Positions 11,034 to 34,030 of a DNA stretch of 34,030 nucleotides are shown here, in pieces; within the stretch, counting starts at the first letter, position 1, and each line of letters opens with the position of its first letter. A program made the translations under genes and the position numbers. Source of the DNA: Chrysophaeum taylorii (lineage: Eukaryota; Sar; Pelagophyceae; Pelagomonadales; Pelagomonadaceae); assembly GCA_029834535.1 (NCBI GenBank), contig JAQMWT010000532.1:1-34030 (forward strand), given 5' to 3'. The notes below the pieces were generated by a model. The model saw nothing but the letters and a program-made list of their open reading frames with translations, was not told the origin of the DNA and did not search any database.

Positions 11034-11480
11034 GTCGACTGCTAAGAGGGGGGGTGTGAGTGGTGCATGAAGGATGTGTGTGGTTTTGCGGGGCAGGAGA
11101 GATGTGCCTGACGGGCGTAGATAGGTATGCGGGACCTAGTCGGCGTCATCGCCGAGCTGTGGGGCAGGCGAAGAAAGGACGGGCCCCGCCCGTAGGTCGT
11201 ACGCATGCTGCCGGCGGACGTATGTGCGACGAAGGGTGACGTCCTGCTGGGATCGGGCGGCTTGGGTGGGGTTCCCCGAGGCGGCGACATGGGTGAGGGC
11301 GGCGAGGGCACAGCGCGCCCGGCCCAATGCGTTGGCGATCCCCCACTCACGGTGGATGCGGCGAGTTTGGCCCTCTGTCTGTCTTTGAAAGGTCGACTGC
11401 TAAGAGGGGGGGGGTGTTTCGTGCGGGGGGGGGTGTTTGGTGCATGAAGGATGTGCTTGGTTTTGTGGGGCAGGAGGGAC
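11034..11480 (-). repeat. GTCGAC-ended repeat, one full and one partial unit, head to tail
   Basis: A 358-bp unit starts GTCGACTGCTAAGAGGGGG at 11034. A second begins with the same bases at 11392 and runs about 90 bp. Inside is a G/C-rich block (GGGATCGGGCGGCTTGGGTG). The units are in inverted orientation to those at 13681-14250. Both carry GTCTGTCTTT-like sequence just outside the GTCGAC end. Confidence 0.8.
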
Positions 11481-13626: not shown

Positions 13627-13680
13627 AGCCTGGCTCGCGCGCCTACCTGATCCTTACCCTAAATCGAGGGACAGACAAAC

Positions 13681-14250
13681 AGCAGGACGTCACCCTTCGT
13701 CGCACATACGTCCGGCGGCAGCATGCGTACGACCTACGGGCGGGGCCCGTCCTCTCTTCGCCTGCCCCACGCCTCGGCGATGACCCCGACTAGGTCCCGC
13801 GTACTTATCTCCGCCCGTCAGGCACATCCCTCATACCCCACAAACCCACCCACATCCTTCATGCTCCCCACACACACCCCTCTTAGCAGTCGACATTTAA
13901 AGACAGACAAACAAACAATTATACGCATTAGGCCGGGCTCGCTGTGCCCCCACCGCCCTCTCCCATGTCGCCGCCTCGGGGAACCCCGCCCAGGCCGCCC
14001 GATCCCAGCAGGACGTCACCCTTCGTCGCACATACGTCCGGCGGCAGCATGCGTACGACCTACGGGCGGGGCCCGTCCTCTCTTCGCCTGCCCCACGCCT
14101 CGGCGATGACCCCGACTAGGTCCCGCGTACTTATCTCCGCCCGTCAGGCACATCCCTCATACCCCACAAACCCACCCACATCCTTCATGCTCCCCACACA
14201 CACCCCCCCTCTTAGCAGTCGACGTTTAAAGACAGACAAACAAACAAACA
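13681..14250 (+). repeat. GTCGAC-ended repeat, two near-identical units, period 326 bp
   Basis: Units start AGCAGGACGTCACCC at 13681 and again at 14007. They are almost identical and end CCTCTTAGCAGTCGAC followed by TTTAAAGACAGACAAACAAA. The spacer (13920-14006) matches the inner end of the oppositely oriented unit at 11034-11391. A trace of a preceding unit (GACAGACAAAC) lies at 13670. A partial inverted end (CCTAAGAGGGGGGGGGC) follows at about 14278. Confidence 0.85.
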
Positions 14251-18062: not shown

Positions 18063-18277
18063 TAGCTCGCGCGAGGCAGACCACCTCCCTGACGGCGAGC
18101 GACAGCACCGGGAAGGCCGTCCATAGCCTTCGCGCAAGGCAAAAACTTCGTGAGTCCAGCGCACCGGTTCAGCGCGCAGTCAGACGGCTGCCGGCATTTT
18201 GCTGTCTGACGAGAAAAAGTGCAACAAGCGAGCTGTGAGCGTTCGGATTAATCCTATTATCCGGGCAAAGCGCGGTC

Positions 18278-19393
18278 ATGGCAGAAAGGCCAATTACAGA
18301 ACGACCGCAGTGGTTTCGGGACGCGCAGGAGCGTCTGCAGCGATTCATTACGGCGCCACCTCTTCCCTCCATTGGAAGAACACCGTTCAGCACGCCCTTT
18401 CAACGGCCGGAAGCCGGGGAAAGCGGCATAAGAAGAGAGGCAAGATCATCTGATAGCCTCGACAGCCCCCCAAGCGTGGTCATCCTTCCGGATCCACGCG
18501 CCGGCGAAGGGGGAGCTACGGTTGCGCCAGACGCAACCTCAAGACCGGGTGAGCCGACGTTCCCGTACGCACGACCATACGAACGTGCGATGAGTGCTAC
18601 GGAGCAACCTCGAGCGGACCCAGGATTTTCTACTACGATGCGTGGGCCAGAGGAGAGTGCACCTCCTAGACCACCATCCGCGAATACGAGAGCTGCGGAA
18701 GATCGTCGATTGGATATCGACCCCGAGATTCTGCAGACCATCAACGAACGATTTGAGATGTACCAGTCGCAGATCGAGCAGGTCCTACGTGAAGTAGAGC
18801 TTGCCCGCCACGACGCGCAGCAACAACGCTCAGAAGCGGAGCGGCAGCGGATCGACAATGATCGGCTTCGACGAATGGTGGAGGAATCCGCGCGAGCGCA
18901 TGCTCGAGAGACACGGCCAGCCTCTCCGGATGCCACGCGTGTTACGCTCGAAGAGGATGACGCTGTACCGGCACTGACCGATGATCAGCCACCGCGAAGT
19001 CGACCGGAGCCTATCCCGCGGCATCATGCTGACCCCGGCTCGGCACGTCCTCGTGACGAAGAAGAGATCCGCCAACTCAAGAAGGGAGTCGCTGGTATGA
19101 CTCGCATACCTTTCGTGCCTCTCACCAAGAAAATCACCAAGAATCAGGATGAGGTTGATGCATGGTTTATGCCGTTGCGCCGTAGGATGAAGGGCCAAGC
19201 ATTCCGACCTTATCGGGCGCTCCAGATATACGCGTCATCCCTGGATCCTATTCGCCTTATTGCTGAGACGAGCCCAACGAAGTTCACGTGGCCGTGGAGC
19301 ACATTGGTGAAGGACCCATTGGTATCGACCCCGAAGTCCCGGTGGTCGAAGGCGAGATCATGCCGCATGAAGGATGTGCCAACATGCAGCTAA
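18278..19393 (+). CDS. gag: Gypsy Gag, apparently truncated in capsid
   Basis: A 371-residue ORF from the ATG at 18278. Residues 1-145 are Pro/Ser/Arg-rich and disordered. Residues 150-215 form a strong coiled coil (INERFEMYQSQIEQVLREVE, then Gln/Arg/Glu heptads). A capsid-like start follows (FVPLTKKITKNQDEVDAWFM, about 280-300). After ASSLDPIRL the sequence loses capsid character and stops. A different frame (19288-19548) with an acidic, Pro-rich stretch covers the join to pol. No CCHC zinc knuckle or DTG/DSG protease motif is seen. I infer an internal deletion or frameshift between capsid and protease. The stop lies 132 nt before the pol ATG, in the same frame. Confidence 0.7.
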   Translation: MAERPITERPQWFRDAQERLQRFITAPPLPSIGRTPFSTPFQRPEAGESGIRREARSSDSLDSPPSVVILPDPRAGEGGATVAPDATSRPGEPTFPYARPYERAMSATEQPRADPGFSTTMRGPEESAPPRPPSANTRAAEDRRLDIDPEILQTINERFEMYQSQIEQVLREVELARHDAQQQRSEAERQRIDNDRLRRMVEESARAHARETRPASPDATRVTLEEDDAVPALTDDQPPRSRPEPIPRHHADPGSARPRDEEEIRQLKKGVAGMTRIPFVPLTKKITKNQDEVDAWFMPLRRRMKGQAFRPYRALQIYASSLDPIRLIAETSPTKFTWPWSTLVKDPLVSTPKSRWSKARSCRMKDVPTCS

Positions 19394-19525
19394 AGGCCAC
19401 TGAGAACGTTTGTCATGAGACTCTCATGGCTGCTGTTGACGAGAATGAAGTCGACGAGGATGTCTTGAGTGACAGACCTCCTCCTGAGCCTCCTCCAGGT
19501 GAAGAAGTGAAAAAAAACACCAGAA

Positions 19526-21640
19526 ATGGAGATGGAGGCGACTGCTAGGGAACTGCTATCTAAGCACGCCTCCATGGTTTGGATACACATCACCGACATC
19601 TTTGTCGTCGTCTATTTTGCTGGCGCTGGAGGATCAACGGTGGGTATCCGACGATGCAATGAGCTATACGGAACTTCATTTCGCATTGTCTTGGCTTTGG
19701 ATGCTTGTCCACAAGCCCGCGCCACCTTTGTGCTCAATTTTCCAAAGACCCCCTATATTCTGCATGAGTTGGGGAAATCTCATCGTCGTACATACGACTT
19801 GGTGTTGTCGTATTTACACCCAGGCTTTTGGAAGCATTCTTATTTTCACGCAAGTCCGCGGTGTATCTATGGGTCGACTGCCAATTTGCACTACAGGGAC
19901 GCGCGCAAGGGCGCTACTATTACTTCTTGGGTCCTGCGCCATTTCCGCAACGCACCTTACGTGATTGGACGATGGACGCTCGAACAGGAACCATCAGTGA
20001 TCCCTTTTGTGCATCACAAATTTTATGTGCCGCGCATTGTCGATTCTTATAGTATTAAATTATATACACCGGAACTGCTGTGCTCGCGCACGCGCCTACT
20101 TGCTTGCAACGTTCGCTTGGAACTGCCGTTATTAACGCGTGTACCACCGAATTTACGGGTCCGTCTAGAGCCAGCGTTGGGATTTACGGGTGGTCACCCG
20201 CTCATTATAGTGAACAGCTTCTCATCTACTCGCCCGGCTGTCGGCCCTGCCTTCACGGTGACGCGCAACAAATTGCAGATGGGACCTCACTTCTTGAACA
20301 CCCGCCCACTCACGTTGCAGATGCACCAGGAAATTATGACCGTTCCTGCTACGTGGCAATGGGGTGAGAAAGTGTCACAGACAGCAGCTATGAAGATGCT
20401 TGGCAGTATGGTGCCACCCGCGACTATGACGCGGATCGCACTAGCGGTGCATAATTCTTTCGATCCTCCACTTCGAAATTTGGGTAAGTTGCGGAATATT
20501 GCGACGACTACGATAGCAAAACCCGATCACCACCTTCTACGGTTTTCACCCTTTGCTGTCGAGTCGCGCATTCCAACGCTCGACCCTGACACTCGCAGTG
20601 TGTCGTGGATCTCGCCCAATGAACTCTACTCTTCTGTGAGTCCTGCACCATCAGCTGCTGCCACCACCACCCCACCACCACCTTCGGTTACATTGCCTGG
20701 GACGGCTCGATCTTTTTCAGGGGGCACCGTCGCCACTGCTACTATGCAGAGCAACCCAACTAACAACCTACCCTCCACAACCGCCGAAGAAGAAGGCACC
20801 GCGAAGGAGCGACCGGCGTATTTCAATAAGTACGATGTTCCGTGGGCGGACGCGCCTCACGACGAACATGGTCAACCTTTGCCGGTGATGCCTCCTCATT
20901 TAGCGGATCAGGAGAGCATGCAGGTCATCCCTCCGATCGTCGCGCAAGTCGAAGAGGTGATGGCTGAATTGGGTATTACAGAGCATCCTGCGTTAGATGA
21001 TGACGAGAAGCTGATGATGAAGCATCTAATCTCGTATTCGTGGGCATTTTTCGATGATGTGATGAGACCTGTTGATTCACCTGAAGTGACGCTCCGGTTC
21101 AAAGAAGAGAACCCGACTCCCGTCGAACTCTCGCCATATCGGTTGTCGAAGGAAAAGATTGATTGCTTGCGGATGCAGATTGAAGAATGGGCCCGAGACG
21201 GAGTTATTCGTCCCGCGGGTTCTCCGTGGGGTTTCCCTATTTTGATGTTGCCTAAGAAAGGTGCTGAGCCTGGCACTTCCAATGCTTACAGGGCAGCTGT
21301 CGACCTGCAGCGCCTCAACGCGTTGCACAAGGATGATAGCTGGCCGAGCGTGAGCAAGGCTGACGCGCTGATGTTTCTCATCGACAAGCTCTGTCGTTCT
21401 AGTTTGGATATTCGTTGGGGCTATCACAATTTACGATTGTCGCTAGATACACAAGATGTGGTGACCATCACTAGTCCTATGGGAGCGTACAGCTACATGC
21501 ATCTACCTTTGGGAGTCAAACCAGCCGGAAGTTTGTTTTGTAAGCAGCTGAAAGCTGACTTGTCGAAATGGCTATATCGTGATCACATGGCATATATCGA
21601 CGATATTCTCGCCGGTCACGCGGATACAAAGAATCACTAG
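19526..21640 (+). CDS. pol: Gypsy Pol fragment: C5-cytosine DNA methyltransferase fused to reverse transcriptase
   Basis: A 704-residue ORF. Residues 28-306 are a cytosine-5 DNA methyltransferase. Motif I is YFAGAGGSTVGIRR (30-43, AdoMet binding) and motif II is LALDACPQA (56-64). The motif IV region YDLVLSYLHPGFW is at 90-102, motif VI WTLEQEP at 150-156, and a motif VIII-like CSRTR at 186-190. A target-recognition segment follows, then PLTLQMHQEIM (motif IX region) and KMLGSMVPPATM (motif X, 290-301). The expected catalytic Pro-Cys of motif IV reads Pro-Gly (99-100), so this copy may be inactive. Residues 360-450 are a Pro/Thr-rich linker. From about 530 there is Ty3-type RT, with IEEWARDGVIRPAGSPWGFP, a YRAAVDLQRLN motif, LDIRWGYHNLRL, and catalytic YIDD at 21593-21604. 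The ORF ends at a TAG (21638) inside RT, and the RT frame continues beyond it. The protein would act in the particle and then in the nucleus. Confidence 0.88.
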   Translation: MEMEATARELLSKHASMVWIHITDIFVVVYFAGAGGSTVGIRRCNELYGTSFRIVLALDACPQARATFVLNFPKTPYILHELGKSHRRTYDLVLSYLHPGFWKHSYFHASPRCIYGSTANLHYRDARKGATITSWVLRHFRNAPYVIGRWTLEQEPSVIPFVHHKFYVPRIVDSYSIKLYTPELLCSRTRLLACNVRLELPLLTRVPPNLRVRLEPALGFTGGHPLIIVNSFSSTRPAVGPAFTVTRNKLQMGPHFLNTRPLTLQMHQEIMTVPATWQWGEKVSQTAAMKMLGSMVPPATMTRIALAVHNSFDPPLRNLGKLRNIATTTIAKPDHHLLRFSPFAVESRIPTLDPDTRSVSWISPNELYSSVSPAPSAAATTTPPPPSVTLPGTARSFSGGTVATATMQSNPTNNLPSTTAEEEGTAKERPAYFNKYDVPWADAPHDEHGQPLPVMPPHLADQESMQVIPPIVAQVEEVMAELGITEHPALDDDEKLMMKHLISYSWAFFDDVMRPVDSPEVTLRFKEENPTPVELSPYRLSKEKIDCLRMQIEEWARDGVIRPAGSPWGFPILMLPKKGAEPGTSNAYRAAVDLQRLNALHKDDSWPSVSKADALMFLIDKLCRSSLDIRWGYHNLRLSLDTQDVVTITSPMGAYSYMHLPLGVKPAGSLFCKQLKADLSKWLYRDHMAYIDDILAGHADTKNH

Positions 21641-22774
21641 CAGTGCCTTGTGCAAGTTATTCACCATCTCGCCTTGAAAGGGTACAGCGCCAAGATCAAG
21701 AAGATCCACTTCATGCAAGAAGTCATTGAGTTTTTGGGTCATTTGTCTATACCCCGAACGGACTTCTTCCATCACCGAGGTCTTTCGAAGCCATCAGACA
21801 CATGCCAATCCCAGGCACTTTGTCGGATGCTGACCCTAAGAAGCAAGTGCGGTCTTTCCTTGGAATGGGAAGTTTTTGCCGGCGTTATGTAAGGAATTTT
21901 GCGAAGATTGCAGAGCCATTAAGACAAACGTTGCCGGACGTAAAATTCGAGTGGACGAAAGAGCGTCAGGAAGCTTGGGATGCCATCATCGAGGCTATTG
22001 TCGCTTCGAAGGGTGTCTACCATCCTGACTACTCGTTGCCTTTCTACATTCGAACTGATGCTTCCGTGCATGGGTTGGGCGCTTACCTATTTCAAAAAGT
22101 ACCAGTCGTTGACAACGATGGAAGAGAAACAATAGAAGAGAGAGTTGTCGAGTACTGGAGTCGAACCGTCCCTACATCGATGAGGAAGTATGATCCTCGG
22201 TGCTTGGAGCTCCTCGCAGTGCTCTCCGCTCTTGGGAATTTCCGATTTTATATCGTAGGTACGGATCATCGTAATTTGACGTTTCTTCGGGATTCGAACC
22301 ACACATCTGGACAGTTAGCGCGATGGGCTATGCGGCTTGCTGCGTTCGACCGGGAGCTCGGATATAAGCCTGGAAAATCCCCAGGCATGCGCATCCCGGA
22401 TTGTCTGTCGCGCAACCCTATCGATAAGTTGATCGAGAAAGACGAAGACGGGGAACCGATCAATGAAGCCTATTTGATTTTCCAAGAAATCCCCACCGAT
22501 GTACCTGGCGCAGCCTGTTTCACCTTCTCTTCGGTGACGATGCTGATACCGACGGACAGCGGACCCACCGCAGCTATGGCAGCAGTTAGTACGCGACAGA
22601 ATCTACAACCGCCTCAATTCTCGTACGAGTCTGAGCCAGTTGGCTCCGTAGAACGTCTTCCTTTTGCGGATCAAGCTGAGGATGAGATCACTTTCGATGA
22701 GATAGCGAAAGAACAGGCTGAAGACGACACATGCAAACGAATCAGACGAAATCTCGATTCTGAACAGAAAGATC
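21641..22774 (+). pseudogene. pol: Gypsy Pol continuation: RT thumb and RNase H, frame-broken
   Basis: After the TAG at 21638 the same frame continues (LALKGYSAKIKKIHFMQEVI then EFLGH). It shifts by one base in the CCCC run at about 21754-21757 into the frame with SFLGMGSFCRRYVRNFAKIA. Ty3-type RNase H follows: FYIRTDASVHGLGAYLFQ (first catalytic Asp), then YDPRCLELLAVLSAL (Glu) and IVGTDHRNLTFL (Asp). A linker including CLSRNPID and an acidic stretch ends in IAKEQAEDDTCKRIRRNL, which is where the integrase zinc-binding domain would begin. The copia LTR cuts in at 22775. No Ty3 integrase is in the window. Confidence 0.85.
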
Positions 22775-23177
22775 TCCAGAGCGCTACACTATTACGTGTA
22801 CGACACTGGAACACCTCACTCCTTTCACACCTATCTCCACTAGAGGGCTTTCTCTCCGCAATACGGCTTTCCCTCTTTCCTTCCTTACCCTTCCGCCATT
22901 ATTACTCTCAGATTATGAATAATTAGATCTGCAGTTCACTTCCAACAAGGAGTAGACCTCCAGGTGCGTACCGTCAGGTATGGGGTTGTCTCTTTAATTA
23001 ATGGAGGCTTCACTCCTCATTGTCAGTGTGGACGCTTCTATGGGACCTAATATCCTTAAGAAGTTAGGGCCTAAATCCCTACCTTGTGTAGTAGCATGTG
23101 ACAAGCGGAATGGTCTGTACACGCCTAAGACTGCACGCAGTCTCTACCATGTACCCGGAGAGGGTCAAATCTCTCCA
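22775..23177 (+). repeat. Copia 5' LTR (403 bp)
   Basis: It begins TCCAGAGCGCTACACTATTA and ends GGTCAAATCTCTCCA, just before the primer-binding site. It aligns with the reverse complement of 25322-25717. The last hundred or so bases are identical, including GTAGTAGCATGTGACAAGCG and CATGTACCCGGAGAGGGTC, while the U3 part is more diverged. The left flank is gypsy RNase H-integrase linker coding sequence. The termini are TC...CA rather than the usual TG...CA. Confidence 0.85.
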
Positions 23178-23191
23178 GGTTATGGGCCCAG
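23178..23191 (+). promoter_or_regulatory. Copia primer-binding site, complementary to the tRNA-iMet anticodon arm
   Basis: GGTTATGGGCCCAG directly follows the LTR. It is the complement of the conserved eukaryotic initiator tRNA anticodon stem-loop (CTGGGCCCATAACC). Copia and Ty5 elements prime reverse transcription from such a cleaved half-tRNA(iMet). This fixes the LTR end and the orientation. Confidence 0.88.
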
Positions 23192-23666
23192 ATGCGTAGG
23201 TGTGTCAGCCCAACTGTGTTGTGCGTATAATGGAGTGATCAGTCTACGCCTGATTACGAGTACAACGCGACAATGTTTTTAGCGGTGGTCTACTGTACAT
23301 ATTTGTTGTGTGACGGTATTTGCCCACCAGTTAATTTGGTTTGTGACCGAGTTGGTTGGCCACTGGTCTTATACACTCGCATAGCCAATAAAACTAAAAT
23401 TTTTCCTACACAAGCCGCGGAAACTTGTACGGGTGTTTCCTCTCATTCCCCAACAAAAGACTAACTGCTCGAGAACTAATCCACTCTTCAGTCTCAAAGC
23501 ATCATGCTCAAATGGCATAGTGATTTGTTTTGTCTTGTATATAAATTCACGCTTTAAATGGCGAACTGTACATATCCCTCCGCATGTTAGAAGCCCTTCA
23601 TTCGAACATGTACATGTCATATTGTTTTATCACTCCTATAACCTATTTCCAATAGGTCACACCACC

Positions 23667-25321
23667 ATGTCAAAACCAAAACCAATATCCACTACGGATA
23701 TCTATAAGCAAGAACAAATCCTCGTTGATAAACTCAACGGTGGATTGCGCTTCCAAGACAATTCGACTAAAGTGAGTTTACAAATTGAGATGCTTCGCAG
23801 GCATATGACAAGCCCATATGCGGACGCGTTGTTCACCTACGATTCCTATAACTCATATACGCGAAATGCCCCAGAATATGACCAACTTCTCGAACACGAA
23901 GTTGATATCATTTTCGCTCAATGGAAAGCCGAAAAGATTAATGAATTACAGTTACCTAACGAAGATGCCTTGCCTGCGCATCTCAAGACTTGGCACGTCA
24001 ATTCTACACATCAACTATCAGTTGATGCACGTAATGATCTCGAACGACTTTTCTATCGAGAATCATATAATCTTGTTCGACCCGAATTAAATGAGGATGT
24101 CAAGCGTGTCCTCACTTTATTAGATACCCGTTTTCCTAAATCAATTGTGTATGATTCATCTCTAACCAACATATCCTTCTCAGGTCTCTCTAATGCCGAT
24201 TGGGTTAAACATTGCGAAACTTACGCCGGTTTCCTGTAAACGTTCTTCAACCTGGAATCTCAAGAACGCCCTGCCCTCGCCATGTGGCCGCAGTTAAAGA
24301 AAATTTACTAGTTTACTGCACACCCTAACAAAACGCGTGCATTAACACTTCTAGCTTACCATTATTATGAAACTGTATCTTGCACAGATGTAACTGAACT
24401 TAAATCTCAGTTTAATCGAATGTCCTTAAATGTTAATTGGTATGCTCATGTATTTGTCGAACTACTCCTTGCTTTCCAAACTCAGGCAAATCAATTGAAC
24501 CATGACGAAGCATCAATTCAATTTAATGATTCCATAAACACACTTAAAGCTCACGAGGAGATTTATCGTCTATATGCTAATCCCTCTGATCACGAGCGCT
24601 ATTCTCAGTCTTTATTAGAATGGTGCAAACTTTACGAAACACGCTCGGGGAACAACTCGACTCACGATCCTGAAGTTTTAAAGCTAGTTGATCCCAATGA
24701 TGTTCGTCCGTTATTGGAGTTCTTGTTAAAGATATATAATGAGACAAAGTTTTCATCTAACCGACGCTTGGATAAACCCGCATCATGGATTCCATATATC
24801 CCTGGTACTACCGCTACCAAGCCACCTAAGGTATTACTGATGGATACTATTCATCAATCTCATGATTCTTTAAACAATGCTTACTCATTGTTAGCTACTG
24901 TCGCTGGACAGTCTGGTTTTAATGCTCGTAAGCTTCGTAATGCAAAAGATAAAGCATCGACAATTTTACCTCGTGACACGTCCTACTATCGTCCACCTTC
25001 AAATTATAATGTCAAAGGCACCAGTTTCGACCGTCCTGTCTACTCACAGTCCACTAACCGCAACTCACGCTCCAATATGTCACTCATGGACAGGGCTACT
25101 TATCAAGTTGACCGTCTTCGCCACCTGTTTGGTGAATTACAGTAAGCGAATCCCAATCCCTCTACCGACTCTAAAATGGTACAGGAAGAAATGTAGAGCT
25201 TACTCAGTACCCTTTGGACAACCGCTTCCCAAGCTTCGACACAGTCTCTAGATCCTGATGAAGCTACTCAAGTTCATCTATACTTATCACGGTGATACTA
25301 TGTCCAACACCATCTCGAACC
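23667..25321 (+). pseudogene. gag: Copia-family Gag, interrupted by in-frame stops
   Basis: One frame runs from the ATG at 23667 (MSKPKPISTTDIYKQEQILV) to the truncation point. It is interrupted by stops at 24237 (TAA), 24309 (TAG), 25143 (TAA), about 25194 (TAG) and about 25293 (TGA). The frame does not change, so these are point mutations and not indels. The sequence is hydrophilic and helical (DALFTYDSYNSYTRNAPEYD, then LLAYHYYETVSCTDVTELKS). It becomes Asn/Ser/Tyr-rich toward the end (RPPSNYNVKGTSFDRPVYSQ), like nucleic-acid-binding Gag tails. No CCHC knuckle is present before the cut. Assignment to gag rests on position after LTR and primer-binding site, not on a recognised domain. Confidence 0.65.
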
Positions 25322-25717
25322 TGGAGAGATTTGACCCTCTCCGGGTACATGGTAGAGACTGCGTGCAGTCTTAGGCGTGTACAGACCATTCCGCTTGTCA
25401 CATGCTACTACACAAGGTAGGGATTTAAGCCCTAACTCCTTAAGGACATTAGGTCCCATAGAAGCGTTTACACTGACAACGAGGAACGAAGCCTCTGTTA
25501 ATTAAACAGAACACCCCGTACCTGACGGTACGCACCTGGAGGCCTACTCCATGTTGGAAAAGAGCTTCAGACTGGGTTCTTCATAGTCATGAAAATATAT
25601 AATTGTGGAAGGGTAAGGAAGGATAGAGGGAAAGCCGTATTACAGAGAGAAAACCCTCTTGTAGAGATAGGTGTGAAATGTACCAGTGTCGCACACATAA
25701 TAGTGTAGCTCTCTGGA
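25322..25717 (-). repeat. Copia 3' LTR (396 bp), inverted relative to the LTR at 22775
   Basis: On the minus strand it begins TCCAGAGAGCTACACTATTA and ends GGTCAAATCTCTCCA. It is preceded on that strand by a purine tract and followed by sequence continuing the gag frame of the plus-oriented copy, so this copy inserted into that gag. Small indels in U3 distinguish it from the other LTR. Confidence 0.85.
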
Positions 25718-25726
25718 CCCCCTCAA
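25718..25726 (-). promoter_or_regulatory. Copia polypurine tract
   Basis: On the minus strand TTGAGGGGG lies immediately before the LTR start. It is the expected position and composition of the plus-strand primer for reverse transcription. Confidence 0.75.
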
Positions 25727-25834
25727 CGTGTGAAAACGGTCTATGCACTTCACACGTTCTTGAGGCGGAACTTGTGCAATATACATGAGAACAGTGAACA
25801 ATGGAACAAACAACAACAAAACAGGACAAATTAA

Positions 25835-27823
25835 TTATGATGTCGAGCGTGTTGTGATGTTGCGTAAAGATGCGGTATCGGTATCCAAAACATCAGATGT
25901 GTGGTCCAATTCATCCTCGCTATTATCGTCCAGTTCCTTTAGCTCTGGAGAAGACGAATTATGATTATCGGAGGATAGGTCGTTAGCAGTATTGGTATTG
26001 TGCGTAGTCATTGCATCACTCAAGGTGACCAAGGGTGCCATAACAGACGAGAGGAAGGACATAGCAGCATCTGGTGTAAGAGCGTGCAGATCCAATGCAG
26101 GAATAACACGACCATGTACATCAGACATAGCTGTGTGTAAGCTGTGGGCTGCTGCGTCGATTAGAACTCGCTGTGCCTCATTATACGTATCTGGAGGGAA
26201 CTGTCCAGTGGACGAGATAAGCGACCGAGAAATGATATGGACAAATACAGCAGAGGTCGGGATTATAGTGTCCTGATGCATTTGAAGACTCGACAAGATG
26301 TTGCCTAACAAAGAGACATGCTTGATGTTCTCGGTCACTTGAGTATTTAACGTTTCGTAGGCCTCTTGCATCTGTGTGAGAGAAGTTAGTGCAAGCGATA
26401 GTTGATATTCTCGTGCCATCAATTGCTGTTCGGTGTTAGTGAGACGTAAGGATAAAGACCGAATCTCTTCTTTTAATTGGTGTAAAGATTCAGCCATATT
26501 GTCGTTTGCTTTATCTGGCGTGGGTTCGGCGGGTGGATTTATTGATCGGCGCTGGTGACACATCTTCAGAAGAGGTATTATCAGAAAAGGTATCAATTAT
26601 TTGGGATGGGTAGCCAACTTGGACTAACACGTTTTTAAATGCCAATTGTTGATCAGGTGGAAGTTGGCGAAAGTAGTTAAGCATTGGCGGTACCGTCTCG
26701 GAAGAAGATGCGTCAAGTTGATGAGAAACATCGTTAACAAAGCATTCGATGAGCACATTAAGTAACTCATCAGGATTGGTGACTACACAGGTTTTATCTT
26801 CAACGGACTGTAACAAAGACCAAGCTGCTACAAGGATCTCAAGATTTACACTCGAAATGAAGGGCAGCTGAAGTAAGAGCGGGGCATTAGTGTCAGGGTT
26901 GACGAGAATTTTAGAACCATCGACGTTAAGGGATGTCTTAATCTGCATGAACGCCTCTTTGAGCAGCTTGTTTATAGCAATGGACTTTCCAAGGCGGAGG
27001 ATTATAGCTCCTATGTGGGCAGTTAGATCATTATAGCAAGAGAGTTGGAAGGGATGTTGATTATTGCGAATTAACGCTATCCCGTGATGTGATAAATTGC
27101 ACATCACGCAAATCAACAGAAAGAAGGGGCGCGGTACATCGAAGCAGTGCGATGCATGTTGCTCAGACGCGAGATGATCTTCAATGATTTGTCGTATCCT
27201 GTCCGTTTTAAGCTCATCTTCAGTGCATATGATGAGTACAAGGGGTGTACCCGGCATATCGGTTTTATTATAGCATTTGGTACACGCCACATGTACTTTG
27301 ACAACCCCTTTAATGGGTGGAAAGCGGTGAAAGCGAATACCTTCATTAGGTGATATAGCGGGAGCATTCCGGATGCGCTTTGCTTTTACGCACAGCAATG
27401 AACTGAGATATTGGACATTATCCACAAACTCTGTCTGTTGTGCTTCCGTAAGCAGCTGCTGCAAAGACTTAAGCCAACACTGAGGATCCTTATGTTGCGG
27501 GAGAAGAAAATTGGGTGGCGTTCCCTGACATCATCGCCAGTACGTCAAACTTGCAGTGTTTGAGCAGGAAGTACTCAGACTTCGCTGCTTGCGATTTAGA
27601 CTGTTGTTGGACAGTTGCCTTGGGCGCCTTGGGCGTCACGGGCGTAGATTGATGTTCTTGAGCCACCGACAAGTAGTTTGATGCTTCCGATTAGGAGAAC
27701 TAGTCGGAGCAACGCTTGGATTTAAGGCATTAAGGGTGGAGATAGTGACGACACGCCACCACGGCCACGGTTCAGTACAGAATAGCGCCGGCTCGCAGCA
27801 TCCTTGTTTTTAGTAGGATTCAT
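25835..27823 (-). pseudogene. ORF3 of the copia element, between RNase H and the 3' LTR; unknown protein
   Basis: A protein-coding tract of about 660 codons split by at least three or four frameshifts. It starts at the ATG at 27823 (MNPTKNKDAASRRYSVLNRG, basic with RGRGG). A Gln/Ser-rich part follows (27672-27490). The main body (27464-26511) has a possible metal site: CTKC, then CFDV and CVMCNLSHHG about 55-75 residues later. A coiled-coil C-terminus (from about 26496, MAESLHQLKEEIRSLSLRLT) and a Ser/Asp/Asn-rich acidic tail complete it. No membrane-spanning or envelope-type features are obvious. Ty1/copia elements normally end with RNase H; extra 3' ORFs are known in a few lineages such as Sireviruses. 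I recognise no domain, so the function is open. Confidence 0.65.
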
Positions 27824-27939: not shown

Positions 27940-30657
27940 CTAACCATCTTGTTGAGCTATGGGTTGTTGTAAGCCGAGTAACGTGCGAAATCTGCTGAAG
28001 AGTGGAGCTCCAAAGGGTTTGGTAAATCCATCAACAATGTTATGAGTACCGGAAACATGATGTAGACGTATACGTTTTAACTGTACGTAGTCGCGAATAC
28101 GGAACCAGCGTGTGCTGATAGCTTTGGCCTTAGTCGCGCTGTCGGGATTATTAGATAGATGAATAGCAGAGGCAGAATCTCCAAGTATAGGACTGTTACG
28201 TATGAACGACATGTCCGATGGGAGGGGACTGTCGTGAGCATCATAATCTAGTAGCAAGTCTTTCCCTGAAGGTTGGCGAAGATAGAAGTGAGGATTTATA
28301 GCGAATGCCATTTCCGTTAACAGTTTGCGTAACCAGACCACATCATCGGCACACATATTAAGGGCGATAAGTTCACTCTCATGCGTAGAAGTAGCCGTGA
28401 TAGGCTGTAACTTAGACTTCCAAGTGATGAGAGAACCAAACAAAAAGATGGCGTAACCGGTTGTAGACTTGCGGTCTTGTTCATAAGAGGGTGCATTATC
28501 GGCATCAACGAACGCGACCAATGGATCAAAGTTACCTGAATTGACTTGTTCTTTAGTGTAATCCAACATGGTGGCCATGTCAGTGCGATTACCGATAAGA
28601 AGTCGAAGATGGTCCATTAGAGCGGAAGAGCCAGAGTAGTACCAGAGTCGAAGATTACGATTTTCGGGCTTGCGCAAGTAGCGGAGCGTTCCTGTTAGTA
28701 CTTGAACATGTAGAAATGCTGGATTGTGCATTCCTCGAGAGCAACGACTAAGACTTTGGGATAGATCAGGGCGACAAGCCAATTGGACAAACGTGAGCTT
28801 GCCGAGTAGGGTAGAGAAGGTATGAAGAATAAACTTGTCCATATTAGAAGATGGCTCTCCAGTTTTATACGTGGTTGATGGTGACATCGGTGTGGAAGTG
28901 GGACGTAACTGCATTAAAATGGGGTACTCTTCGAACAATGCATCAAGTTTAGCCTGACAGTCCAGTGATATAGAACCATCAGTTGTACGCGTTATGCGCA
29001 TGCCTAAGAGAGTATGGACTTCCTCGAAGGTGTCGACTGAGTATTCCTTTTTCAGGGCTTGCTGGAATTCACGACGTAGAGTTTCCGAAGTGCAAGTAAT
29101 GACGACGTCGTCTACTGAGAGCGTGCAAATTATAAATGTAGCATCAGCTTGGACTTTAGCGTAAATGCAGGTGTCTGTTCGAAATCGTGTATAGCCTAAT
29201 GAATCAAAGAAGCCGTTTGTGGTTTGATTCCAAAGGGCGGGGCTCTGGCGTAATCCATAGAGAGATTTAAGTAGCTTTGGGAGACGACGGCCTTGATATT
29301 TAGTATCTTCGGGATCGAGAAGGTAAATGCCTTGTGGCAGTTTGACATAGACATGAGAGTCGATGGGAGCTTGAACAAAAGCGTTAGGTACGTCGACATG
29401 GTAGACGGGAAGTCGCAGATGAGCTGCTAGCGCCAGAACACAACGGATGCCAGTAAGCTGTGCCATAGGGCTGAATGTGTTGAAAAAATCGGTGCCCAGA
29501 GAGGCTAAGAATCCTCGTAGGACCAGGCGTGCTTTATGCTTAATGTACTGACCAGCAGCATTGGTTTTTATACGTAGGACGAGGCGGGTGTCAATAGGCT
29601 TTGAGTTGACCATTGGCAGCGCTAGTTTAAAGCAGCCAAACTTAACAATATCAAAAATCTCTTTGGAGATGGCGGAGATATAAGCTTCGCGATCAGCGTC
29701 TGAAAGACCTTTGAGGCAGTTCAACTCATATTCATCAATTTTGATATCTTTGGCTTGAATCTTGTATTCGTCCGAACCAACAGTGCTGGGGTCATGAGTC
29801 GTCGTAAGATGGGTAATTGCGTAAGAAGCGACATTATCGTGAGTGTGAGCGTGATCGGGATCTTCGACGAGTTGAACAACTAGTAGAGGAGCATCACCAA
29901 GGTGGGCCTCAATGTAATGCGATTGCACGGTGATATAGTCTTCGATGGCGGAGAGGTGAGGCTCGGAGGCACCATAAGAAGCGTCATTATGATCCAAAAT
30001 GGAGTGGGGTGTGAACAAAGCATAAACATATTGAGCGGGAGGAACTTGAAAGGCGTGAGCATGTTCAGAAATTAGATGAACGAGAGCTTGAGGAAGGTGA
30101 AAGTCTGCAAGGTTGACATCGTCGCAGAAGTGAACGTGAGGAGCATCAGGCGATGGGTGGCTATGGCTCCTATGACACATAACTGAAGAGGACTGTGAAA
30201 GCGCTTGGTGCACATGGTGATGAAGTGATGGTGTAAATTCCCCCTCTGGAGGTATAGCCGTCCAGTGGATGCCATGAGCAAGATCAAGGGAGTGAAGGGT
30301 GGGGTCGCAGAAAGTCATGTGCTGCTTGGAGAGGTCATACTTGAAGTCGGCAAGCGTACCACCGGCTTGTTTATAAGCGGCAACAGTAGGCGAGGCAAGA
30401 CGAGTAAGAACATCCTTGAGATTGGTTTTGCGACGAGGTTGAGGGTGATGAGGACCACGGGTGAGACGTAGGACATCCTGGGAATAGAGAGACCGATAAG
30501 ATGGTAAAAGTGGCAAAGTGTTTGAGGACACTTCAGATGTAGGTGTGGTGGCGGAAGTGGCGGGTGCAGAAGCAGCTGGAGCACATGCGGGAACGGGAGA
30601 GGAAGCATGGGGAGGACGAGCAGAAGTCCCCCTCTCGTGGTCAGTGTCGGTAGGCAT
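27940..30657 (-). CDS. pol: Copia Pol C-terminal half: reverse transcriptase and RNase H
   Basis: An intact 905-residue frame. The open frame extends upstream to about 30855 without an ATG, so it was probably made as part of a polyprotein with integrase. Residues 1-330 are a Pro/His-rich linker. Copia-type RT has KHKARLVLRGFLASLGTDFF, a DVPNAFVQAPI motif with the first catalytic Asp, KSLYGLRQSPALWNQ, and an active site reading SVDD instead of the usual YVDD. Copia-type RNase H has AFVDADNAPSYEQDRKSTTG, then TATSTHESELIALN and ILGDSASAIHLSNNP, with the catalytic acidic residues kept. The end HHVSGTHNIVDGFTKP is typical of the family. The frame carries no stops, so this copy is young or was recently active, in contrast to its integrase and ORF3. 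Confidence 0.92.
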   Translation of the reverse strand: MPTDTDHERGTSARPPHASSPVPACAPAASAPATSATTPTSEVSSNTLPLLPSYRSLYSQDVLRLTRGPHHPQPRRKTNLKDVLTRLASPTVAAYKQAGGTLADFKYDLSKQHMTFCDPTLHSLDLAHGIHWTAIPPEGEFTPSLHHHVHQALSQSSSVMCHRSHSHPSPDAPHVHFCDDVNLADFHLPQALVHLISEHAHAFQVPPAQYVYALFTPHSILDHNDASYGASEPHLSAIEDYITVQSHYIEAHLGDAPLLVVQLVEDPDHAHTHDNVASYAITHLTTTHDPSTVGSDEYKIQAKDIKIDEYELNCLKGLSDADREAYISAISKEIFDIVKFGCFKLALPMVNSKPIDTRLVLRIKTNAAGQYIKHKARLVLRGFLASLGTDFFNTFSPMAQLTGIRCVLALAAHLRLPVYHVDVPNAFVQAPIDSHVYVKLPQGIYLLDPEDTKYQGRRLPKLLKSLYGLRQSPALWNQTTNGFFDSLGYTRFRTDTCIYAKVQADATFIICTLSVDDVVITCTSETLRREFQQALKKEYSVDTFEEVHTLLGMRITRTTDGSISLDCQAKLDALFEEYPILMQLRPTSTPMSPSTTYKTGEPSSNMDKFILHTFSTLLGKLTFVQLACRPDLSQSLSRCSRGMHNPAFLHVQVLTGTLRYLRKPENRNLRLWYYSGSSALMDHLRLLIGNRTDMATMLDYTKEQVNSGNFDPLVAFVDADNAPSYEQDRKSTTGYAIFLFGSLITWKSKLQPITATSTHESELIALNMCADDVVWLRKLLTEMAFAINPHFYLRQPSGKDLLLDYDAHDSPLPSDMSFIRNSPILGDSASAIHLSNNPDSATKAKAISTRWFRIRDYVQLKRIRLHHVSGTHNIVDGFTKPFGAPLFSRFRTLLGLQQPIAQQDG

Positions 30658-30857
30658 AGCAGTCCCCCTCTGCGCCGCATCATTGGGGGTGCTGTGAACA
30701 GAGAAGGGAATGTCGGGTGAAGCTGGAGGTGGATGCTGTTCATAATCAGGAGGAGATTTAGAAATAAGATGAGGAAAGGTCAGTTTAGAGGAAACACGGA
30801 CTTGGCCGTTTTCAGGATTAAGGACAACTTCGGCTAAATGATTAACATGGGGTGTTA

Positions 30858-31948
30858 TTAAAGGGGGTTTATAAAATTAGCACCACATAAGTAGATGTAA
30901 GGACGACATCGAGGCTCATATTTATGAAATTCGTTAGGTTCCAAATGCAGATAACAAACAGAACCAAAAGGTTTGAGGTAGTCCTGTTGGGGAACATTAC
31001 ATTGGTCTAACAAAACTTGTTGGGGGCTTAGGACTTTATTATAAATACGTTCGAGGGAAACGTTAGGGAGGAGATTATACGATTGGATGGCATGTATAAC
31101 AGCCCACGGGTAGTGTGGTGCCGGATCTGTTAGGGGGTGACCTTTATAGGATACATTAAGCATATGCCGGAGTCGTGTAGACGCGGCAGTGGCTATGTGA
31201 CCAACAGCGGCTTCTACTTCATGATTAAAGACATGTAAGTAAGGGGGCAACGCGGACATGTTAATACCATGTTCCACACGGAAGGGGGTTGTAACATGCT
31301 GAGATAAATAGAGTTAAAAGGAATCACAATAGATTTGTTTTAGTTGTACATGAACATAAGTAGAGCAAAAATTGCGGACAAACTCAAGGGCGTTACAAAA
31401 TTCGCTGGAGTTAGTGCTACGACAAAGTACACTAACAAAAATTTAGAAATGAGACACTTAAAATCAATGATATGTCGAAAGGATCCCCATTCCGAGAGAA
31501 CGGATACGTAACCACCGTCACATGCCCAGGCTTCACCAGGTTGAAAAATTTTTTCGAATGATGGTTGCTTGGTAAGATGGTGTGGATGAGGGAAGCGTTT
31601 TTTATGAATTGTACAATCCACACAGAACTTACGGTAGGGTACGTCAGATGGGTGGTGTCCAGGACTGGCAATAACCTGAACAGCTTTTATAGCTTGAGAA
31701 TCACTAGAATGGTGGATGTTGTGAAAATTGGTAGCTCGTTGTTGCGCATCTCGAAATGCGAGGGTGCCCCTGGCATGAACTTTCTTATCGAAGGGCGCAT
31801 GCTTCTCATGGAGCTGTCTTGGCGTTATGAGAGGAATTTGTCTTTCTTTAGTAGGAGATGATATATCTGCGGATGAGGTGTTAGAGAGGAAGACATGAGC
31901 TACTGAATCGAGATGAAAAGATGGAAGTTCGTGGTTAGAAGCAAGATT
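30858..31948 (-). pseudogene. pol: Copia integrase, frame-broken
   Basis: The open frame from 31948 carries the integrase N-terminus: RATNFHNIHHSSDSQAIKAV and KFCVDCTIHKKRFPH, the zinc-binding region. The catalytic core follows: FQPGEAWACDGGYVSVLSEW, with the first Asp in CDGG. After 31340 the frame breaks, and the middle with the second catalytic Asp and the usual DNGGEF is degraded. The next frame (31277-30858) resumes at VEHGINMSALPPYLHVFNHE, with the catalytic Glu region, and continues into the C-terminal block LKPFGSVCYLHLEPNEFHKY and CRPYIYLCG. A further frameshift near 30860 leads into the RT frame. Confidence 0.85.
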
Positions 31949-32105: not shown

Positions 32106-33865
32106 TTAATTTACGCAAGTCACAGACAAGCTGACACAAATGTTATATATATAGATTATATGATATGTTCCAGCCGGAATAGCATTAGCGATTATGTCAC
32201 AGCATAGGTCCGGGGACAAAGACAAACGAAAATTGATTTGGTGCGCTGTGAAGTTATTGGCGCGTGCCAATTCACGAGTTGAGTAGTGTCGAATGCGATC
32301 GAGTCGTGGATCGTACACGAGCATATTAGCAAATCCACGAATGGTAGGAGTGGGAGTGTATATAAAATGAACTTTGGCACCCACCTTCCTATCGCTTGAT
32401 GTAATAAAGCCCAGGTATCTGCTTTGGGACAGATGCATGTCACTTAAAGCAAACATTTTATCGATAATTTTATCGATAAATTCGAGACGATTTTCCTGAG
32501 GGTAGAAGACAAAAGAATCGTGAAATACAGGAGAAGTATAGGGAACCAGTGCTTGTACTAGACGACGCGTGTCTTGATTTTCATTATTATTATGGTATGC
32601 TTGGCAAAGCCAAAGAAAACCAGTAACAGGTTCGAGAGAAGCTGTCTTATCGATTCCGGCATCATGTGTTAGGATGGTATAGGTTTCGCCAAAAGCATTT
32701 ATATGTGCCTGGTATTTAGAAGAGGAGTTCGAAACTGTTATGTCTCCGCCTGTGTGTCTTCCACCGGTGATGTAAATGATGGGGGAAGTAGAGGATTTAT
32801 TTAAGAATAACCTGTGAGATGGTTGGTTAGATTCGATAGTTGTAATACGAAAGGACACAGGTAATGTGATAGATTTAGGGAATAAACGTCCCATAATATT
32901 ATAGAGGAGCACAAAAGCTTTGAGTTCAATAGGAGATCTCATACAAGCAAGTGGTTTTCTTGAATTAGTCAAGAATCCCAGGCGAAAGTTAGAAATGCCC
33001 TCCATGTCATCTTGACTTGGATGTTCGACTGTTTTGTTAGAGTGCAAACGAAGAAACAACATGGTCAAGGTTTCAAGTTCAGTCACAGTTAGACGAACAG
33101 ATCCTGTGCGACTGAAGATGTTGTAGGTTTTAGGTGTGGACTCAAATGGTATGTCGGGAAAGACCTGCTTCCAAGGTTCGTCGACTAATAACTTGCGACT
33201 GATGGAATTAGCGTGATCTGCAATGTCCAGAAAGGAAGTAACTCGCTTGTTAGGCCAAGAAAGCAGATCAAGATGGCCGGTGTTATATTTGCGTGCGACG
33301 AGGATCCATCTTTCCCTGGCTTGATAATCTCCACACAGATAGCATGGAAATCGGTCATATATATCCACCGTATAGTGCATCGTTGAGAAGATGAGATTAG
33401 CAACTCGTATATGGTCTTCATACGATGCGGAATGTGGTGGTGTCATTTCCATGAAAAGAACAAGCGGCTTTAAAAGCTCAAGTACACTTAGGGCACTTGG
33501 AAACAGGGAATCGTCCATATCATGCTCGAAGGTAAAATGGATCTCCCATTGATTATGTTGCGATTTGTGCATGGTGATGTCAGTTCCACTATATCGGTGT
33601 AATATCGTGCACGTTCAGCGTCCGATGCTCGATGGAGATATGTCAGAAACTTGGGTAGGGATGGGAAAACTTCGATGGAATTACCAAAACGTCTTCGTAG
33701 CATGCGCGTGAGATTGTCGTCGCTCTCAACAAGAACTTTAACGTTGATGTTGATTTGCAAGTCATTAGAAGCGCAAGCCAAGAATGCAGGAGTGGACATC
33801 CCAGAGCAAAGTAGAGTTACAGTAGGTGTTCGTGAGCTAGGAGACGTAGTTACTGTGTCAAGCAA
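32106..33865 (-). pseudogene. Copia-encoded C5-cytosine DNA methyltransferase, one frameshift
   Basis: Two overlapping frames form one DNMT. The first (33865-33488) has motif I TVTLLCSGMSTPAFLA, motif II VKVLVESDDNLTRMLRRRFG, and motif IV DIVELTSPCTNRN with the catalytic Pro-Cys intact (33574-33569). The second (33572-32106) continues with LELLKPLVLFMEMTPP (motif VI Glu; EMT in place of ENV), CYLCGDYQARERWILVARK (motif VIII), and a long target-recognition region of over 300 residues. Motif IX is HYSTRELARANNFTAHQINF and motif X is IIANAIPAGTYHI. A frame switch between motifs IV and VI falls somewhere in 33488-33572. Position upstream of integrase, on the same strand and in the same AT-rich block, marks it as element cargo. 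It would methylate cytosines in DNA; specificity is unknown. It shares little beyond core motifs with the gypsy DNMT. The frame has no ATG at its upstream end, so it may be translated as part of a gag-pol polyprotein. Confidence 0.85.
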
Positions 33866-34030
33866 ACGTGTGGTAACCTTGCGTCATACGGGACGTGGGA
33901 AATGCGTGCGTATGTAAGGCAGCTGCGAATGCATTGACTCCAAGAATGGTTTTGGGAGAATTTCTCATTTTTTTAACGCGCTTTTTGCGTTGTTGTTAGC
34001 GAATCAATTGGTAGAGTAGGCGCAACAGGT
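33866..34030 (-). other. Edge of window, upstream of the copia DNMT
   Basis: On the minus strand a short frame from an ATG at about 33968 (MRNSPKTILGVNAFAAALHT) stops before the DNMT frame. No LTR, primer-binding site or gag motif is visible in these 165 bases. Confidence 0.4.

Follow-up and report, generated by a model that had tools for sequence, protein, structure and literature searches.

Cytosine methylation is the classic weapon of the host against retrotransposons, and a retrotransposon that encodes such an enzyme itself reverses that picture. The few DNA methyltransferase (DNMT)-carrying cases described so far are LINE, DIRS and gypsy elements. According to the available portions of de Mendoza et al. 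(2018; PMC5890265), KnitGypsy-Dnmt3 of Klebsormidium nitens is an LTR retrotransposon whose Pol ORF includes the DNMT, with the key residues kept and a Ka/Ks below 0.2, while Symbiodinium harbours SymbioDIRS-Dnmt3 and SymbioLINE-Dnmt, in hundreds of copies as worded in a section title, together with an abundant copia superfamily without any DNMT domain. For SymbioDIRS, the authors propose in these portions that the packaged enzyme methylates the cDNA. In a more recent paper (PMC12344493, 2025), one sentence of the available text places some members of DNMT3 within LTR Copia and DIRS elements, with the 2018 work as its reference; as the latter, in its available text, describes Gypsy and not Copia, the mention of “LTR Copia” may be a slip, and the text available gives it without copia structure, family or sequence, unlike the element presented here. 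No described copia element with a DNMT was found in the literature covered, which includes PMC9998398, PMC6338049 and PMC11244446 in their available text, and to which most subscription papers and all bioRxiv preprints do not belong. As far as these sources go, what is already published consists of DNMT-bearing elements of the three types above and of copia named in one sentence.

The element concerned lies in Chrysophaeum taylorii, on a stretch of 34,030 nucleotides (hereafter the window) corresponding to the whole of contig C532 in an assembly of 70.8 Mb, across which other copies were sought. This genome gives 84 matches to light-harvesting proteins, which, along with element-protein relatives found in MMETSP alone, indicates a marine alga that is photosynthetic. 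The minus strand very probably carries a Ty1/copia LTR retrotransposon in which a C5 cytosine-methyltransferase domain has been added between protease and integrase and is maintained by selection as part of the element. Like the domain of KnitGypsy-Dnmt3, as reported in the available text, it belongs to pol, keeps its key residues and evolves under purifying selection (Ka/Ks below 0.2 there vs. a median dN/dS of 0.076 here), whereas KnitGypsy-Dnmt3 is a gypsy element with an enzyme of the Dnmt3 type and the present one is a copia element, where the DNMT sits between protease and integrase, after a UGA stop, and has about 340 aa between motifs VIII and IX. SymbioDIRS-Dnmt3 and SymbioLINE-Dnmt, on the same partial reading of the source, are likewise retrotransposon-encoded and found in many copies but belong to DIRS and LINE elements. 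As in a retrotransposon-encoded DNMT, the present domain is found within pol, in multiple copies and under purifying selection.

In the window copy, which is frame-broken both in the DNMT and in the integrase, the methyltransferase is spread over two minus-strand frames, namely (i) 33491..33883, whose translation contains motif I TVTLLCSGMSTPAF (33782-33823), the stretch LVESDDN (33713-33733) and motif IV DIVELTSPC with its Pro-Cys (33569-33595), and (ii) 32109..33614, delimited by translation, alignment and a Pfam match, with motif VI VLFMEMTPPH (33432-33461), motif VIII GDYQARERWILVARK (33288-33332), the long stretch between motifs VIII and IX, i.e., the target recognition region, motif IX DRIRHYSTRELARANNF (32250-32300) and motif X CCDIIANAIPAGTYH (32160-32204). 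The motif set and order claimed in an earlier note on this DNA are thereby located in the window, its motif list and coordinates being right, and the very long target-recognition region it had described is real by the motif coordinates. In the family of the window element (family 1), about 341 residues separate motif VIII from motif IX, for a DNMT of about 560 aa. After the recognition region, motifs IX and X read RHYSTRELARANNF and IIANAIPAG, with counterparts recognised by eye in two other copia families, i.e., family 2 (L043) and family 3.

Taken alone, the long frame 32109-33614 matches the Pfam profile PF00145 only marginally (E 0.092), the first frame (33491-33883) has no DNMT match in Pfam, and NCBIfam gives no DNMT match for either frame. 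The second frame can nonetheless be assigned to the DNMT because of a chain of relatives, from P0001 to P0002 and on to a joint profile and solved structures. P0001, an MMETSP protein, is 41% identical to the element protein over 57% of the query (E 3e-74) and matches PF00145 with an E of 4.4e-4, just under the curated cut-off; P0002, found by profile search (E 2.9e-28), is 32% identical to P0001 across 269 columns and matches PF00145 above the cut-off (E 1.2e-10). A profile of 10 members without family 3 and without P0002 (A1) found no match in the PDB, and only two of the 10 match PF00145 at E <= 1. With a profile of eight relatives, i.e., families 1, 2 and 3 plus P0001 and P0002 (A2), 28 PDB matches were obtained at E <= 1, all 28 named cytosine methyltransferases (HhaI, HaeIII, DNMT1 and two “cytosine-specific methyltransferase” among the names, DNMT3 in none), with HhaI as the best (E 3.6e-6) in an alignment spanning motifs IV to VIII where Pro-Cys, Glu and Q-x-R-x-R are in register. 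Such an HMM search of the DNMT frames had been suggested in the earlier note, as had the possibility that the long second frame would lack any DNMT match; the frame turns out to be tied to the DNMTs through P0001, P0002 and A2, although it is so marginal by itself. HhaI (PDB 2i9k and others), with motifs IV, VI and VIII aligned, represents the closest solved relatives by profile, but is a stand-alone bacterial enzyme of 327 aa compared with the domain of about 560 aa in the copia element. Taken at the level of profiles and alignments, the minus-strand frames are confirmed to encode a divergent C5 cytosine methyltransferase, of predicted activity.

The same divergence, with an E of 0.092 for the window frame alone, would also fit a DNMT fold without catalytic activity, retained to bind DNA or to guide the integrase, as would motif VI, which reads E-M-T in the family of the window as opposed to the E-N-V of many C5 methylases. 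Such a reading is nevertheless unlikely in view of the residues retained, as the catalytic Cys of motif IV, the Glu of motif VI and, in motif VIII, the Gln and the first Arg are present in all 14 copies compared (13 of family 1 and one of family 2). The first two of these residues are moreover invariant across A2, family 3, P0001 and P0002 included. The Pro of motif IV is kept in 13 of the 14 copies, as is the second Arg of motif VIII; in family 3, motif VIII differs in reading and retains one Arg.

Around the predicted methyltransferase, the minus strand of the window displays the parts of a copia element in order. On its 5' side, the upstream (protease-end) frame is represented by its last 20 or so codons, ...LESMHSQLPYIRTHFPRPV, before a stop (33887..33952, from translation and alignment), further 5' of which the window copy diverges and the contig ends; between this frame and the methyltransferase-pol frame, comparison of copies places a TGA followed by C (33884..33886) as a proposed readthrough stop. 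On the 3' side of the DNMT lie the N-terminal part of the integrase (31343..31948), recognised by eye from the His/Cys pattern and the first Asp (ACDGG), its C-terminal part with an SH3-like domain (30861..31313; PF25597, E 9.5e-6, 25.9 bits, just under the cut-off of 27) and a Ty1/copia reverse transcriptase (RT) frame of 978 aa (27943..30876), with RVT_2 (PF07727, E 2.9e-41) at 28924-29610 and RNase H by position. Then follows an extra ORF of about 560 aa (25838..27530), in two frames in the window and with a coiled-coil-like end, through which the copies on contigs C317 and C311 align and whose DNA is present in other copies; it has no Pfam domain above cut-off. By its position, this extra ORF resembles an env or accessory gene. 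The polypurine tract GTTGAGGGGG (25718..25727) adjoins the 3' LTR of about 396 bp (25322..25717), the same repeat being found at both ends of the C317 copy. That copy, at 231733-243940 (about 12.2 kb), is bounded by two LTRs that share 92.4% identity across 410 columns; its target-site duplication is not clear. The primer-binding site and the polypurine tract adjoin the LTRs of the element. With the LTR as a query, matches in the window were restricted to 25251-25760 and 22775-23181, with none between DNMT and integrase, so that the 5' LTR which, had it stood there, would have put the DNMT outside the element was not found in this interval.

Further upstream, the putative gag/protease region contains long ORFs without Pfam match, where protease-like motifs (DTCAS, DSCAT or DGGAS) were seen by eye only. 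The first of these was observed in family 1 (L011:2826-4538), the second in family 2 (L044:403-1482) and the third in family 3 (L037). Where families 1 and 2 have Cys in this motif, Gly is usual. With good confidence, the order of the element can be given as LTR, gag-like, protease-like, UGA, DNMT, integrase, RT, RNase H, extra ORF and LTR. The same family is represented on the plus strand by another copy, which is truncated (22775..25321) and where LTR match and repeats reveal a 5' LTR (to 23177), a primer-binding site (23178-23196) and gag-like frames; it lies directly against the 3' LTR of the copy on the minus strand and apparently interrupts a gypsy element.

Since the window copy has broken frames and is truncated on its 5' side by the contig end, the arrangement could be thought to arise from a host DNMT gene beside one copia copy or from a chance insertion into it. 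The other copies make this extremely improbable. The two DNMT frames of the window correspond to one open frame elsewhere (e.g., L009:4360-7911 and L013:3053-7444), and single ORFs extend over DNMT and integrase in L009 (1184 aa) and on to the beginning of RT in L013 (1464 aa); that of L014 (1457 aa) takes in the last part of the DNMT and everything up to and including the RT frame. The ORFs of L013 and L014 match rve (E 0.011-0.014, i.e., PF00665 with E 0.011 under the curated cut-off in L013) and SH3, both under the Pfam cut-offs, followed by RVT_2, in that order. The comparison with other copies recommended for obtaining an unbroken ORF hence joins the DNMT to the integrase and to the beginning of RT in L013; no family-1 copy among those fetched keeps a single open frame across all of pol, from DNMT to RNase H end. 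The placement inside a copia element upstream of the integrase, as originally proposed, is borne out by the same-strand order in the window and by the in-frame fusion in other copies, including L009 and L013. The same arrangement recurs in dozens of copies and in three families, and the reading as a host gene or chance neighbour was rejected on in-frame fusion and copy number.

At the scale of the assembly, the DNMT frame of family 1 corresponds to at least 92 matched stretches, many of them 90-96% identical and with open frames above 600 aa, and family 2, with a DNMT 45-48% identical to that of family 1, to 82 matched stretches. Considering the best 150 RVT_2 matches, RVT_2 lies within 8 kb downstream on the same strand for at least 18 of 82 family-1 and at least 23 of 77 family-2 DNMT places; among the RVT_2 matches listed, the gap is of 2.2-3.2 kb in 34 of the 41 same-strand downstream pairs, RVT_2 is upstream of the DNMT once in family 1 and never in family 2, and on the opposite strand again once and never, respectively. 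In family 2, the sequence downstream of the DNMT at L043, L045 and L046 aligns to the integrase or RT of family 1. A peculiar chimera was observed on contig C641 (L041/L015), where a family-2 DNMT is fused to the last part of the upstream frame of family 1 and has a family-1 DNMT after it, resulting in two tandem DNMT domains.

A Pfam search of the genome gave 57 DNMT matches, two of which are host-like genes (L021 and L022); most of the other loci cut out from these matches (L023-L040) were assigned to family 3 by eye. The host-like genes on contigs C634 (L021) and C621 (L022) comprise one stand-alone enzyme of 360 aa and one 2086-aa frame with a clear PF00145 match and motif IV T-S-C. In the family-3 copy on contig C96 (L037, L053), the protease motif (DGGAS), DNMT, integrase and RT are in one frame of 1952 aa. 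Family 3 was at one point considered as gypsy, as L040 carries a gypsy-like integrase upstream, an assignment rejected because the RT of L053 aligns to the copia RT of family 1; RT is 34% identical between both families over 290 residues and the integrase part 23% over 482. The family-3 DNMT is nearer PF00145 than that of the window family. In a profile comparison, the DNMTs of families 1 and 2 match that of family 3 over 481 columns (E 1.1e-5, probability 82%), to be compared with probabilities of 0.7 (L022) and 0.3 (L021) for the host-like genes, and motifs VIII and IX are 319 residues apart in family 3 vs. about 341 in family 1. Because of this profile match, the shared layout and the similar VIII-IX spacing, the three copia families, which carry related DNMTs in the same layout, are most simply explained by a single ancient acquisition of the enzyme in a copia lineage that has retained it ever since. 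Respective to a viral origin, no relative was found in viral_contigs by a scan for short peptide patterns.

As for selection, the DNMT dN/dS among 13 open family-1 copies, which are natural copies picked for open frames and form non-independent pairs, has the above median of 0.076 and ranges from 0.017 to 0.19 (77 of 78 pairs with dS > 0.02). The VIII-IX stretch alone has a median of 0.072 (72 pairs), and the linker-integrase stretch 3' of the DNMT a higher one of 0.182 (57 pairs, several of them short). Judging from these codon comparisons, the DNMT domain is under purifying selection in family 1. Another conceivable role is that the domain limits its own element, with self-silencing methylation lowering the damage to the host so that the element persists. 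The high copy number with many little diverged copies would accord with it and, in its available part, PMC5890265 puts forward a similar idea for other DNMT retrotransposons. Even so, it appears quite unlikely, given that selection among copies should not easily retain a self-repressing domain and that the low dN/dS fits a positive role in replication better. A methylation footprint was searched from CpG content and minority transitions in the element and no clear one was found: with an observed/expected ratio of 0.93, CpG is slightly depleted in the window element, and minority-transition sites amount to 24/155 for CG, 34/204 for CT, 22/250 for CA and 8/143 for CC.

Concerning expression, the boundary between upstream and DNMT frames reads TGA-C in 18 of the 18 distinct places compared (13 of family 1, the window and four of family 2), four other fetched places (C311, C344, C572 and C424) having been left out as their boundary is shifted or missing. 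While the presence of a stop at this boundary follows from the way frames are cut, a constant TGA-C at the same place does not. An upstream frame of at least 200 aa ends one codon before the DNMT frame in five of 12 fetched stretches (L009, L011, L012, L015 and L016), with ORF lengths of 207-632 aa in L009, L011, L015 and L016, the one in L015 being a family-2 chimera; the stop separating both frames in L017 is located about 28 codons further up. All four family-2 places read TGA-CTA, which is a strong readthrough context, and family 3 has no stop between protease motif and DNMT. Because the stop is always TGA-C at the same place, we infer that UGA readthrough is the likely route to a DNMT-pol product. 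A hairpin can be drawn around the stop, with 91.8% of cells paired in 11 distinct rows, of which the covariation is not beyond chance (62 of 500 shuffles reach the score); z-scores for an RNA signal at the stop were 1.21, -1.81, -1.60, -0.24 and -0.17 in five stretches, and no signal is claimed there.

The proposed scenario would then be as follows: (i) readthrough of UGA-C would yield the DNMT-pol product, (ii) the DNMT would enter the virus-like particle along with integrase and RT, (iii) the packaged enzyme would methylate the newly made cDNA of the element, or the integration site, before or during insertion, and (iv) methylation would make the cDNA look like DNA of the host or protect it against degradation or deamination. 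For the specific step, methylation by the DNMT of the element's own cDNA, we see a real possibility, somewhat short of an even chance.

Alternatively, the methyltransferase could act on RNA, namely the genomic RNA of the element or the primer tRNA in the particle, thereby stabilising RNA or aiding reverse transcription. C5-methyltransferases of the DNMT2 type act on tRNA, and the primer-binding site of the element resembles the anticodon arm of a tRNA we take to be initiator Met. At three places cut out of five and nine pattern places for the gene of the primer tRNA, ARAGORN calls no tRNA; one is an LTR copy and one has a Met-type 3' half. Furthermore, according to the available text of PMC5890265, the SymbioLINE DNMT produced no DNA methylation in yeast and a role on RNA is raised by the authors. 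With the long VIII-IX stretch sitting at the position of DNA target recognition, and with DNA methylases, HhaI, HaeIII and DNMT1 among them, as the named PDB relatives, an RNA substrate is nonetheless improbable, and methylation of the cDNA is preferred.

The window also contains, on the plus strand, a gypsy element (18239-22926) which, like the copia one and in the same genome, is an LTR retrotransposon with a DNMT upstream of RT. It corresponds to 126 matched genome stretches, with open frames up to 2129 aa, and its DNMT displays a motif I of its own as well as, in L057, the motif S-P-P-C. In contrast to the copia enzyme, it is compact, with about 300 aa from motif I to X vs. about 560 aa, and by blastp it has no similarity at E <= 1e-3 to the DNMTs of copia families 1 and 3 or to P0002. 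The strong difference between the two enzymes that had been pointed out agrees with these results, and their separate capture, also advanced at the time, is supported without being proven; since blastp finds no similarity, it would be the simpler reading.

More broadly, it is tempting, if rather speculative, to extend this to a whole copia lineage, where a captured DNMT with an unusually long recognition region would have become one of the core enzymes of pol, produced by readthrough of UGA and entering the particle together with the integrase, and would methylate each new cDNA of its own element prior to insertion, a gypsy lineage having independently acquired a different DNMT; carrying such an enzyme would then be a repeatedly selected strategy of algal LTR retrotransposons. 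At least three copia families have a DNMT beside their integrase, under selection in family 1, where this was measured, and present in many copies that have diverged little, near a gypsy DNMT to which it is apparently unrelated; the benefit that a DNMT brings to a retrotransposon thereby becomes directly testable in one alga. Elsewhere in the window, a repeated stretch occurs in direct and inverted copies at 13680-14206, 11045-11332 and 259-325.
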